This document shows, piece after piece, positions 24,716 through 30,783 of a stretch of 64,000 bases of DNA (its first letter is position 1; each line of letters starts with the position of its first letter). Source of the DNA: Daphnia carinata (lineage: Eukaryota > Arthropoda > Branchiopoda > Diplostraca > Daphniidae); NCBI RefSeq assembly GCF_022539665.2, contig NC_081335.1, positions 6,758,001-6,822,000 on the forward strand, written 5' to 3'. The position numbers and the translations under genes are program-made. The notes below the pieces were generated by a model. That model saw only the letters and a program-made list of their open reading frames with translations, did no database searches and was not told the origin of the DNA.

Positions 24716-25510
24716 GAGGTCGGAGAAAAAGGCCCTGACGAAAAAGGCCCAGACGAAAAAAGGCCCAACAAAAAAGCCCAGACGAAAAAGGCCCACTTTT
24801 TTACAAATTGGAAAGTGGGCCTTTTTATCCATTGGACTGGGCCTTTTTCTCCGCTCAATTTCCATGTTCCTACAAACTTTTAATTGTTTCCAAAATGTAT
24901 TTCCCACCTCCTATTCCGTGGAAGTTGGAATGTACAAAGGATGCTGAAACTGTTTCTATAAGGTTTGCCGAGATAAAAGAATGTTAGCGTATGTACGTTA
25001 GTTAATCTTTAATTTTTTATTCGGTAGCAATTTGATTTCGGATTATATTAGTATTTATCTATTGCTTATATCCCGTTAAATAAAGTTCATTTTTCACAAT
25101 TTTTGTTTATTGAACTATTATCGCTTCTTTAAATATAATACAAGAAATATATGTTTTTCGTACATAGCCTTGTTCTGTCCACCCCCTTTGATCATTCCCC
25201 CCCCCCCCCAACCCCCAGTCCATCTCCCTTATAACTTTTCTTTGTCGATGCTTATGCCATAGGTAAAGACCACTTATTCTGTGAATATGGAAACTGAATG
25301 AGTTCCGCGGGGCTCTTGTGGTTGCTGGGAACAAAGATATGTTAACACGAAGACCAGTTTATTATTACTAACATTTGATAAATAAAGTTTATAGGAAGAA
25401 AATTACACACTTAAACTATCGTTTGAGGTAAGGACAAATAAAAAGAATATTATAATTCAATTTTGATTCTCATACCACTTATTTCCTTATCATATTTTCA
25501 ATTCTTTTCA
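24716..25510 (+). repeat. Left terminal inverted arm of element 1
   Basis: The outer 130 bp hold tandem GAAAAAGGCCCAGAC units and a short GGCCCACTTTTT-x-AAAGTGGGCC hairpin. The inner part matches the right arm (TATTCCGTGGAAGTTGGAAT, CTTGTTCTGTCCACCC, GCTTATGCCATAG and ACATTTGATAAAT segments). A run of 14 C at about 25,198 lies in it. Confidence 0.85.
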
Positions 25511-26590
25511 CAATTACAATGAGCCAAATAAATTTATTAAAATCATAACCTACTGCTATAACTATATCTCAGGCGGTGACTGCTGACTGTTATCTAGGCT
25601 TGGAGCGCTTTTCACCAAAGCAATAAATAGTTCGATCAAAACTGGAATATTCAATTTGCGTAGGAACGCCTATGAATCAAACTTAAATAGTTAATGTATG
25701 GCTTTTGTTAAAGAGCAATCTTTTGTTAAAGAATAACCTCACCTTTAGTCCGAGAAAACAATCTACGTCTTGTTACAGTTTTGACACATTTATACCTACA
25801 AAACACATTATTCAAGACACATACATTATAGCACAGAAATACAACAAAGGCATTCAACACAGACATACAAAATAAACACAATACTTACAACACATATACT
25901 ATTTACAAACACATCGCGAAGGGAAGCCAGCAATCCTGCAGAGCTCCTTCTTTAAAGGACTAACACGAGGGCGGCCAGCCAACGGCAGAGCCCCCTCTTT
26001 GCGTCCTGTCGGACGTCGGGCCAAATCCCGAGTCCCAGACTAAGTAAAAGAGAGGCCAGAAGTCGACTAAGGTTCGACCTGACCTCTAGGGGTGAAAGGG
26101 TGACAATAATGAAAGACATGCAAACAAAGGCTCACACAAGATGGCAGCACTTAAAATACAGTCAACCGACGAGAGAGGGCAATAGTTGCAACAGTCTCTG
26201 GTAAGAACAGGCGTTTTTCCAGCAATTATAAATGATTTTTTACGTTCTTCGTGTCTTGTTTTCCCCTTATGCACATTTTCAAGCAGCTATTGGTTACCTA
26301 ATTACACATCAAATACTACAGTGAAATATAAGGAAGCTTTGCACTTGACGTTAACAAAGCTAATAACAATAAATAATCAATTTTAATTATTTTCTACCAA
26401 GAAGGACTTTTTTTTTGTGAGAGTCTGTATAAATGAAGACACTAAACCTTTTAAAGAGAATCTAAGATTTTTTTTTTCAAATTTTCCACGATCATGGAAG
26501 GCATGCCAGTGTATTTTTATAAAAAACTATCTCGACATGGCTTGCACATGAAAGAACACAAGTTTAGCTCATCCATGAGTCAGTATCAGT
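25511..26590. other. Interior of element 1 without recognised gene
   Basis: No frame of note. A GC-rich island at about 25,915-26,090 (AGGGCGGCCAGCC, GTCCTGTCGGACGTCGGG) contrasts with the AT-rich surroundings and may come from another source. I do not recognise it. Confidence 0.4.
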
Positions 26591-26599
26591 AATTCATGC

Positions 26600-27373
26600 G
26601 ATAAATTTTCCTTTTTTTTTAGTTTATTCACTTTATGTTCTTTCTTTTCAGTTTTCTTTTTCCTAATGTTGGCTTTTCTCTTTTCCTTTTCTTCGATGCG
26701 TTCAGCCCAATTTTTTGTTAACTTTCTGATTTGATTTGATCTCGTTTCTTAATTTATTTGTCAAGCAATTCCACACAGTCTTTTACCTATTGCAATACAG
26801 AAACGTTAAAAGTTTTGAACTTCTTACAAATGTGTTTGCCAAATTGAAAGTGTACCTGAAAACCATCAGCTATGTGCAGAGCACCTTTTCATGCCTGTTT
26901 ATCTTCAATGCTTCTTCCATTCTCAACTTCAGCTTGGCCTACCAAGATTTTCACTTTTGGTTTAAGTTTTTTTTCATTTAAATAGTTGCCACTTCTGGAT
27001 CTAAAGTGGTCTTTTCCAGAATGGGTGAGGGATTAAATAGTTCTCCAAAATCCAATTTGCTGAAAACTAGGCAGCCTTCACTGTTGAAAATCGGTGTTGG
27101 CAGTGTACTTACTAGTCTTGGTTCTTGAACTTCTGCTTTGATAAACTCTGAAAGACCAGAGGTTGATGACACAGATGCTGCCTTGGTGGCTCATGCAAGT
27201 TTGGCAATTCAGGACCTCTTCTTTTTATTTTTCCTTTTTAATTTCTTCTTCATTTCAATTAACTTCCGTTTAGTTTGGTTTTTGTTGTCTTATCAGACAA
27301 ATCCAGCTTTTTCCCTGAAAATCAATGGAATAATCTGGCCAGTCTTCCTTAAATGTAAAGAATAACACATACC
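26600..27373 (-). pseudogene. SURF6-like gene fragment captured in element 1
   Basis: SURF6 is a basic nucleolar protein of ribosome biogenesis. On the minus strand an exon starts at 27,314 after a TTTTCAG acceptor with a Lys-rich block (RKLIEMKKKLKRKNKKK). It continues with the family motif PIFNSEGCLVFSKLDFGE, stops near 26,981, and resumes in another frame with SIEDKQ-x-KGALHIADGFQV, the worn counterpart of the W-x-x-A-x-x-K-A-E-G-V-K-V core, up to a GT donor at 26,856. A last exon (about 26,786-26,600) gives WAERIEEKEKRKANIRKKK. It lies just downstream of Akt PH coding on the same strand. Stops and shifts make it a relic. A second copy is at 39,775-40,185. Confidence 0.72.
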
Positions 27374-27389
27374 TGTCAGGTGTGAGAGC

Positions 27390-28536: not shown

Positions 28537-28724
28537 TGATGAAGTGCAAATGAAATTTCTCTTAACCGGAACAATAGACCTCATCATTCAGGGAAGTAGG
28601 AAGTGGTACGTAGTCGAAGAGATACAAATATGTGGTTTATTAATAGTGAAGACGGTTTAACCATTTTTAACTATTTCTTTTTCCAATGTTGTTCCTTTTT
28701 TATCCCAATATTTGTTTGAAACAG

Positions 28725-29743
28725 ACTTTAGAAAACTTTGAGTTCATCAAAATGTTGGGCAAAGGTATGTTTGGAAAGGTGATTCTTTGCCGAGAAAAGG
28801 CACTGGCTACTTGTTCGCCATCAAAATCTTTAAAAAGGAAGTCATTATTGCATTAGACGAAGTTGCCCACATTCTTACGGAAAACCGCATGCCACCACCA
28901 ACCATCCTTTTTCTTTTATTGTAAAACATTTTTCATTAAATAATATTGCACCATTTCTCATTCATATTTTTAAAACTTTGAAACAGGCATTAAAATATTC
29001 CTTTCAAACAGCTGAACGGTTGTGTTTTGTAATGGAATATGTTAACGGCGGTGAAATGTTTTTTCATCTTTCACGTGTTCTGAAGACAAAACGCGGTTTT
29101 ACGAAGCGGAAATTGTTTTAGCGCTAGGTTATTTACACGATCAAGGCATTATCTGTAGGAACCTTAAGGAAACAAACTGATAGATAAATTGTTTTGTTTC
29201 TTGGGGTTTTACCTACGAAACGATTTTTTGTTACCAGCTGGAAAATTTGTTACTCGACAAAGATGGACACATAAAGGTTGCTGACTTTGCACTTTGTAAA
29301 GAGGATACCACGTACGGACGGACTGCCAAAACAAAGAGTACCTTGCCCCCGAAGTGCTTGAAGACAACGACAACGGGAGGACAGTAGATTGGTGGGGCTT
29401 GGGTGTTGTCATGTATGTGCTCATTTGCGGTCACCTTCCGTTTTACGACCGGGATCACGACATTCTCTTTGACCGTATTCTTTTAAAAGAAGTTAGATTC
29501 CCTCGAACGCTATTGCAGGAAGCAAAAGATCTTCTTGGCGGGCTTTTAGCTAAGGATCCACATAAGAGATTAGGAGGCGGCCCGGAAGATTCTCAAGAAA
29601 ACATTCTACATCCATTTTTCATACCGATATCTTGGACAGATCTAGTTCAAGGGAAGGTACGTAGGCGTGCAGGTTGTATTTGATTGTTTTGATTTTACCC
29701 TGTCTGCTGCACGCAGATTCCACCACCGTTCAAGCCGCATGTG
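28725..29743 (+). pseudogene. Akt: Akt kinase-domain exons captured in element 1
   Basis: Plus-strand exons match the Akt catalytic domain. Exon 28,725-28,915 has the glycine loop (LGKGMFGKV), then a frameshift. Exon 28,987-29,170 has [16 protein letters not shown] and, in another frame, the catalytic loop with CRNLK in place of YRDLK, so the catalytic Asp is lost. Exon 29,238-29,656 starts [11 protein letters not shown], has DFA instead of DFG, lost part of the activation segment near 29,330, and then is open through [11 protein letters not shown] to HPFF. Exon 29,717-29,743 gives IPPPFKPHV before a GT donor. The regulatory tail and hydrophobic motif are absent. Introns are retained. It cannot be an active kinase. 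Confidence 0.92.
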
Positions 29744-29879
29744 GTGAGTGAAAGACACCCGATAATTCTGTATCGATGGTTCTGATCAATGAGAGAAATA
29801 AACTATTTGTAAAATTGATAAAACTCTTACGAATGTTTGCGTAATCCATTTTTAATTACTTAATACTTAAATTGAAGAT

Positions 29880-30783
29880 TTTAGGGAACTAATTCCTAAG
29901 TGTGAAATGCATGCTGAAATTCAAAGATCAAATCAAGATTGAATAATAGTAATCTTTTTCTTTTGTCCGTGCTTCAGACGATAGTTAATGTAAGATTGTA
30001 ATATTATTCCTATAAACATATTCATCAAATGTTAGTAATAATGAACTAGACTTCACAATAACAAATCTCGTTCCTAGCACCCACCAAAAGTCCCACGGAA
30101 CTCATTCAATTTTCGTCCCTACCATGTAGGCCTAGTTCTTTCCATTGTCCACAAAAGGCACTACCGATAAGAGTAAGTATTTTGCTTTTTCGGCGTCAGT
30201 AGGGATAGGGCTAAAAGCATACCACACAACGAACCATTGTTCTTTATCTATGGCATAAGTATTGCAAAAGAGAAGTTACAAGGGAGACTGAGTGGGGTGG
30301 GGGGAGAGAATGAGCAAGAGGGTGGACAGAACAAGCCGAAGTGCGGAAAACATAGATTTCTTATATTATATTTTAAGACCCGATAGTTGTTCAATAAACA
30401 AAAAATGTAAAAAATGAACTTTATATAACGAGTTATTAGCATTAGATAAATACTAACATAATCGGAAATCTGATTACTACCGAATCAATAATCAAAGATT
30501 AAATAGCGCACATACGATAACATTGTTTGATCTCGGCAAACCTTATAGGAGGTGACGGTTTCAGCAACCTTCGTACATTCCAACTTCCACGGAATAGGAG
30601 GTGGAAAATATATTTTGGAAACAAATAAAAAGTTTTTAGGAACTTGGAAATTGAGCGGAGAAAAAGGCCCACTTTTGAATGGAACAAAGTGGGCCTTTTT
30701 CGTATGGGCCTTTTTCGCCTGGCCCTTTTGTCGGGCCTTTTTTGTCTGGGCCTTTTTCGTCTGGGCCTTTTTCTCCGCCAATC
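29880..30783 (-). repeat. Right terminal inverted arm of element 1
   Basis: This is the inverted counterpart of 24,716-25,510. The inner part (GCTTCAGACGATAG, CATCAAATGTTAGTAATAAT, GGACAGAACAAG) also occurs at 33,180-33,415 and 40,735-40,800 in element 2, linking the two elements. The outer 120 bp are GGGCCTTTTTCGTCT repeats. Confidence 0.85.

Follow-up and report, generated by a model that had tools for sequence, protein, structure and literature searches.

The genome of Daphnia carinata (108 Mb in 106 contigs were searched) very probably harbours a multicopy system of Mutator-like elements (MULEs) in which pieces of the host genes SURF6, Akt and AIFM1 have been captured as genomic DNA, and the element examined here, located at 24715-30783 of a 64,000-nucleotide stretch of contig C5 (C5:6758001-6822000, hereafter the window, to which unprefixed coordinates refer), is very probably a non-autonomous member of that system, a Pack-MULE. 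The traits of a Pack-MULE are all present: long terminal inverted repeats (TIRs), target duplications of 8 bp or 9 bp, fragments of host genes whose parents lie elsewhere, many insertion sites, and an interior in which neither inspection by eye nor alignment revealed a transposase. The original prediction, made from the letters of the window alone, that this is an animal counterpart of Pack-MULEs with host genes captured at the DNA level, is borne out by the copies, their duplications, the introns kept in the captured pieces and the absence of arms from the parental loci.

The element is best read as 6,069 bp long with the 8-bp target duplication GAAAATAT, of which the left copy occupies 24707-24714 and the right copy 30784-30791, as judged from the flank letters and a family-wide comparison. 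A 9-bp string, GAAAATATG, is perfect at 24707-24715 and 30784-30792, and a 6,068-bp element with a perfect 9-bp duplication within a satellite had been predicted; the satellite and the string on both sides stand, but because the family-wide left end is GGAGGTCGG, with the window element starting GGAGG at 24715, and because the family rule is 8 bp (see below), the duplication is reduced to 8 bp plus an ambiguous G, which may be the first base of the element or a base of the satellite. The insertion target is this satellite of 358-bp units (22695-24715, plus strand, delimited by repeat analysis and flank alignment), beside and within which the element sits, and both flanks align to a single unbroken satellite stretch, overlapping at 22990-22998, which by its letters is an empty site. 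Arms, direct repeats and flanks were compared by ungapped and gapped self-alignment, and the arms also by end-pattern search. The conserved ends are asymmetric: the left, L-type arm (24715-25549, plus strand) has the end GGAGGTCGGAG, the right, R-type arm (29770-30783, minus strand) has the end GATTGGCGGAG read inward, and tandem 15-mers are present at both tips. The predicted inverted arms are confirmed by a gapped match of 82% between 24721-25272 and 30777-30238, by ungapped blocks of 52-233 nt each between 24721-25279 and 30231-30777 with 77-92% complementarity, and by an inner inverted block (25335-25384 with 30019-30068).

Between the arms lie, in order, two stretches of the SURF6 parental locus (L041:616-823 and L041:821-2094) and two of the Akt parental locus (L037:592-1253, inverted, and L037:1324-2593), followed by the right arm. 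The first SURF6-locus stretch (25550-25770, plus strand) derives from sequence 3' of the coding part; the second (26195-27444, minus strand in gene sense) contains exons at 26597-26783 and 26853-27291 with introns kept. The Akt pleckstrin homology (PH) exons (27444-28098, minus strand) and the Akt kinase exons (28534-29768, plus strand) likewise keep their introns, and a small palindromic linker without strand, which alignment showed to be common to family interiors, occupies 28397-28532. The two SURF6-locus stretches are separated by a 425-bp insert without strand (25771-26194, or to 26195 as cut) that does not align to the SURF6 parent; its borders show a 3-bp overlap in the parental alignment, and it was not found in the other loci compared. 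All SURF6 and Akt stretches align through their introns to intact parents (83% identity over 543 intronic Akt sites), which upholds the earlier identification of Akt PH, Akt kinase and SURF6 exons with introns kept. The kinase region at 29300-29680 matches the Pkinase profile with 65.3 bits, and the long kinase exon changes frame; the short SURF6 frame at 26981-27190 and the PH frame of the related locus L012 had no Pfam match alone and were identified by DNA alignment to the parents. The host pieces in the window are decayed, non-coding and pseudogenic. As predicted, the element has no recognisable transposase: its sequence is made up of the arms, the stretches from SURF6 and Akt, the 425-bp insert and some small linkers, and no frame of at least 70 amino acids looked transposase-like by eye, profile scans having covered part of the frames.

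The parents of the captured pieces are intact, with open exons. A probe from the Akt part of the window (28700-29680) found 18 places in the genome (18 of 18 candidates scored): itself, 16 other copies, among them the second element of the window (C5:6791697), and C3:9922904 at 83%. The last (L037) is the Akt parent, with open kinase exons, an extent beyond the captured part, a long kinase exon whose best match in the Protein Data Bank (PDB) is RAC-beta (Akt2; 1e-75), and joined PH exons scoring 58.7 bits. A SURF6 domain search gave 38 matches (129 of 129 candidates scored), two of which, at C3:8059517-8060197, lack stops and constitute the parent (L041; 119.3 bits for its joined exons); stops interrupt 33 of the 36 non-parent matches, the other three being short pieces without stops. 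For AIFM1 the parent is L043 (within C9:5740400-5742700), whose exons are open and, when joined, match apoptosis-inducing factor 1 in the PDB (5e-61). The Akt and SURF6 parents lie on the same contig 1.86 Mb apart, and no match to the arms better than E 0.058 was found in the three parental loci, which reach about 1.5 kb past the probe for Akt and SURF6 and less for AIFM1; the arrangement named beforehand as contrary evidence, Akt and SURF6 adjacent with arms at a parental locus, is thus not what the genome contains. It is hardly conceivable that the supposed parents derive from the elements rather than the reverse: nothing was found in favour of such a derivation, and the parents have the open exons of old conserved genes, extend past the captured segments and carry no arms.

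The element belongs to a family (family 1) whose ends were sought with two 31-base patterns at no more than three mismatches, outward-facing neighbours less than 20 kb apart being taken as pairs. The genome contains 83 left-type and 74 right-type ends (reversed control patterns gave 0 matches), forming 54 pairs (51 left-right, three right-right, no left-left) and leaving 49 of the 157 ends unpaired; when the left arm was used as a probe, the best 40 of 232 candidates yielded at least 40 long matches, among them the window itself, at 86-89% to the window arm. Flanks were compared in 51 of the 54 pairs, one on C82 and two on C95 being left out: 32 have a perfect 8-bp duplication, two an 8-bp duplication with one mismatch, one a perfect 9-bp duplication and 16 none. 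The 32 perfect strings are all mutually different, and mismatched pairings of flanks from different elements gave 0 of 2,550 perfect at 8 bp; the family-1 rule is therefore an 8-bp duplication, and a 9-bp rule was rejected (one of 51 perfect at 9 bp). The copies, termini and duplications that the original prediction had asked for are accordingly found in at least 54 paired elements, and its alternative of arms confined to a segmental duplication present once is contradicted by the many copies with independent duplications. A broader form of that alternative, in which the arms and what they enclose were spread by segmental or satellite-type duplication and not by transposition, is very improbable: some copies did spread by duplication, as shown by shared flanks (L018 and L019; C7:400653 and C7:667809; C64 and C69), and the 16 elements without a target duplication would fit it, but 32 different perfect duplications in 51 elements, as against 0 of 2,550, and copies on 10 large contigs speak against it. 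By eye, elements seem concentrated in blocks of certain contigs, for instance C3 5.0-6.3 Mb and C8 0.1-1.8 Mb, at a distance from the parents of SURF6 and AIFM1.

A second element in the window (32589-41474, plus strand), recognised by end-pattern search and with no target duplication found on flank comparison, represents a sister family (family 2) with the ends GGTAGCCGG and GATTGCCGG. It contains an Akt kinase piece (33609-34227, minus strand), a 1.8-kb AIFM1 piece of five exons with introns, 91% identical to the parent (36835-38618, minus strand, identified by alignment and profile search), and SURF6-derived sequence in the SURF6 coding sense (39744-40632, plus strand), the Akt and SURF6 parts being placed by alignment to the parents. 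The genome has 120 family-2 ends at no more than one mismatch (control 0), and from 100 of them at least 36 pairs less than 35 kb apart were assembled, 35 left-right and one left-left. In 21 elements tested (20 from the genome and the window's own), eight duplications are perfect at 9 bp, four perfect at 8 bp and one is 9 bp with one mismatch, with none in eight; the null counts are 1 and 0 of 420. The flanks of C7:400653 and C7:667809, and those of C64 and C69, are identical in opposite orientation, and since two of the eight 9-bp cases repeat the flanks of another, six independent 9-bp sites remain. An AIFM1 search, with the best 40 of 49 candidates scored, placed 23 of 39 non-parent matches inside the 36 family-2 pairs.

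SURF6 is a standing part of the family arms and not a private cargo of the window element. In 10 of the 10 other complete elements read (L010, L012, L014, L016, L018, L019, L023, L026, L027 and L028), each arm is bordered by SURF6-derived sequence, which is present in both orientations, and from this it follows that the SURF6 capture is old and was amplified with the family; the window element is the exception among the 11 read, having SURF6 next to one arm and Akt next to the other. Flanks are shared by L018 and L019, so these may be one insertion, duplicated. A search with the SURF6 stretch gave at least 57 matches, and the real number must be higher because the best 40 of 237 candidates were scored. 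The description of Akt and SURF6 as host cargo thus holds for the origin of both but not for SURF6 as something special to the window copy. The Akt sequence ends at L037:2584-2593 beside right-arm sequence in all 11 non-parent Akt loci read, the window included, and this common breakpoint in both families implies one shared Akt capture; two of the 17 non-parent Akt places lie in family-1 pairs and five in family-2 pairs. Because the copies have capture breakpoints in common, each gene must have been captured few times, perhaps once, and then amplified, and the varied host pieces expected among the copies are Akt, SURF6 and AIFM1. A fourth gene was not counted: a unit of about 1.3 kb at L017:3590-4900, with a frame that presumably resembles pyrroline-5-carboxylate reductase (PYCR), has 27 genome matches, a Pfam score of 14 bits (below cut-off) and no inverted ends around it, and the pairs listed include neither of its two further near-full-length copies (C10:507606 and C9:1514265); C6:2868692 may be its parent.

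Kimura two-parameter distances from the parents in non-coding sequence are 0.10-0.13 for AIFM1 (two copies), 0.14-0.24 for Akt (14 copies) and 0.19-0.28 for SURF6 (eight copies), and in exons 0.07, 0.12-0.21 and 0.27-0.29, respectively. This gradation suggests an order of capture of SURF6, then Akt, then AIFM1, an ordering rather than a date. Exons show no clear advantage over introns in preservation, SURF6 exons differing more and those of AIFM1 and some Akt copies less, and the pieces behave as pseudogenes. It is distinctly unlikely that the host pieces are kept for a function, such as hairpin RNA from the SURF6-bearing arms acting on host genes: the inverted SURF6 that each of the 10 other complete elements read carries in its two arms and the closer exons of some Akt copies (window against L030, 0.058 in exons and 0.093 in introns) would suit such a role, but on the whole exons have diverged about as much as introns, the pieces are just 73-91% identical to the parents, the frame is broken in the window, and stops occur in 33 of the 36 non-parent SURF6 matches. 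Equally doubtful is the larger scheme of an animal MULE lineage serving as a long-term gene-collecting platform, with SURF6, Akt and AIFM1 as successively younger layers and arm hairpins yielding small RNAs that reach genes of ribosome-making, growth and cell death. In the mechanism proposed for capture at the DNA level, repair or replication of an element would have switched template onto a host gene; SURF6 would have been taken first and become part of the arms, Akt would have come next and AIFM1 last.

Movement was probably driven by a FLYWCH-MULE transposase that a small number of larger members, with ends of this type, would encode. MULE domains occur at 19 places in the genome (81 of 81 candidates scored), two of them in family-1 pairs and none in family-2 pairs. 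One of the two, in L014, matches PF10551 with 31.9 bits (WRKY, C48 and PHD matches all fall below cut-off), and a protein search with its pieces found one relative of 350 amino acids with PF10551. It was rejected as the autonomous partner: it belongs to a nested MULE (L014:2814-6380) with its own TIRs of 81-88 bp, its own 9-bp duplication GAGAACGAC and copies that do not belong to the family (C1:7722198-7725836 and C8:402352), and L012 shows its empty site. A family-1 element with a perfect 8-bp duplication, C5:6361584-6372400, of which 5 kb of 10.8 kb was read, carries a FLYWCH-MULE with a FLYWCH match of 24.0 bits (cut-off 23.6) and a MULE piece of 25.5 bits, rising to 27.8 with its frame neighbours (cut-off 27.6), with one stop in the match; SURF6 sequence is present there, and a 161-bp Akt piece further on. 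Of ten related places considered, itself included, one is this family-1 element, three lie in family-2 pairs (C59:11416-19377, C5:7688379-7709864 and C3:5884839-5916549, at 66-67% DNA identity) and six outside pairs. A perfect 9-bp duplication flanks C59:11416-19377, and none was found for the other two; 1.95 kb read from the former contains open FLYWCH-like and DDE-region pieces, the joined MULE match scoring 28.6 bits (above cut-off) and FLYWCH 15.9 (below). That both sister families have related transposases within their ends is best explained by descent with the families, a guest origin being less likely, and the FLYWCH-MULE is a probable, not a proven, autonomous partner. A candidate for the autonomous transposase sought between the same arms has been located in one family-1 and three family-2 pairs, with the reservation that the L014 case is nested and the others were read at most in part.

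A different affiliation must be weighed here, namely that a TIR transposon of another superfamily (a foldback or Galileo element of the P group, a hAT element or an orphan foldback) captured the genes and that the MULE transposases are guests. Neither 8-bp duplications nor long arms tipped with tandem 15-mers are peculiar to MULEs, and the MULE inside L014 is a guest; no P/Galileo or hAT transposase was recognised by eye in the frames listed, no search aimed at P or hAT having been made. Such an affiliation is nevertheless unlikely: both families have related FLYWCH-MULE transposases within their ends, a perfect 8-bp duplication flanking one of these elements and a perfect 9-bp duplication another, and mixed duplications of 8 bp and 9 bp fit MULEs such as Muta1.

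Several observations weigh against a Pack-MULE system as proposed here. Tests for target duplications gave none for 16 of 51 elements in family 1 and for eight of 21 in family 2, including the second one of the window; 10 of the 17 non-parent Akt places lie outside detected pairs, although those read adjoin arm sequence; and in non-coding sequence the distances of Akt and of SURF6 from their parents overlap. The transposase that was the first to be recognised within family-1 ends is a nested guest, being part of a different MULE. For the family-1 transposase, the closest relatives (80-83%) are not inside any paired element, and the domain matches score near the cut-offs, in elements read in part.

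Other repeats are present in the window and in the loci. Direct repeats at 13897-14459 and 18325-19105, 100% identical in two blocks with the second copy split by 217 bases, have the look of a recent long terminal repeat (LTR) element. A BEL/Pao-like retroelement occupies 48637-55691, with 288-bp end repeats 99.3% identical and with DUF1759 (41.1 bits) and DUF5641 (91.9 bits), which are presumed to mark BEL/Pao; together with AIFM1 and an Akt that has PH and kinase domains, this retroelement points to an animal host. Inverted copies of a 1.9-kb stretch, 98.7% identical, lie about 46 kb apart at 9710-11607 and 57633-59529, and a 624-amino-acid open frame on the minus strand (60751-62625) has no Pfam match. 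Long frames in L009, L011, L017 and L020-L022 are LTR-retroelement-like by eye and may explain some long elements, and L022, which has a family-1 arm, contains an ankyrin-repeat frame (L022:2394-3062; Ank_2, 82.6 bits) as cargo or as a nested element.

Gene capture by Pack-MULEs is known in plants and hardly reported in animals; what is unusual here is the high copy number and the host gene built into the arms. The Pack-MULEs of rice and maize, in the parts of the literature available, are non-autonomous elements with long TIRs, long duplications and host gene fragments, often of several genes (PMC6446971, PMC13317346), all traits common to the window families, which differ in their animal host and in having SURF6 inside both arms; three genes over two sister families, from the part examined, compare with more than 1,000 host genes in rice (PMC13317346). 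From the available text of a survey of 100 animal reference genomes, 370 Pack-TIRs were found, four of them multicopy, with MULEs rare (median number 0) and no Pack-MULE (Tan et al. 2021, PMC8277862). The same text describes Ssk-FB4 from Drosophila melanogaster populations, called a Pack-MULE by its authors, with a host gene between foldback arms of about 700 bp, duplications of 9-10 bp and multiple copies (PMC8277862); it has four copies, one gene and, in that text, no named transposase, as against dozens of copies, three genes and a candidate transposase here. Turmoil-1 of C. elegans, according to the portion of its report available, holds two host gene fragments within inverted terminal repeats, one across an intron (PMC2572040); it differs in belonging to the Harbinger superfamily, typically with 3-bp duplications, which were not encountered in the 51 family-1 elements compared, and in its scale, the gene fragments measuring 205 and 131 bp and the element being present as one full-length copy besides eight fragments. 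Phantom-group MULEs, as far as the available text goes, variously have no zinc finger, a FLYWCH finger or a SWIM finger, with duplications of 8-10 bp and TIRs of 18-613 bp (PMC6446971, Dupeyron et al. 2019), and Muta1 of Aedes makes duplications of 8 or 9 bp (PMC5225508); the window families have longer arms, the text consulted mentions no gene capture by Phantom or Muta1, and Phantom membership of the family transposase is a lead only. No other animal Pack-MULE family was recognised by title and abstract in the open-licence literature, which excludes preprints and most subscription journals, so that one may exist in print. Some 90 paired elements, three genes captured with introns and diverged to different degrees, breakpoints that can be read, empty sites and candidate transposases would open the mechanism of capture, whether template switching or gap filling, to study in an animal, and could show whether capturing genes is a property of MULEs in general or one confined to plants.

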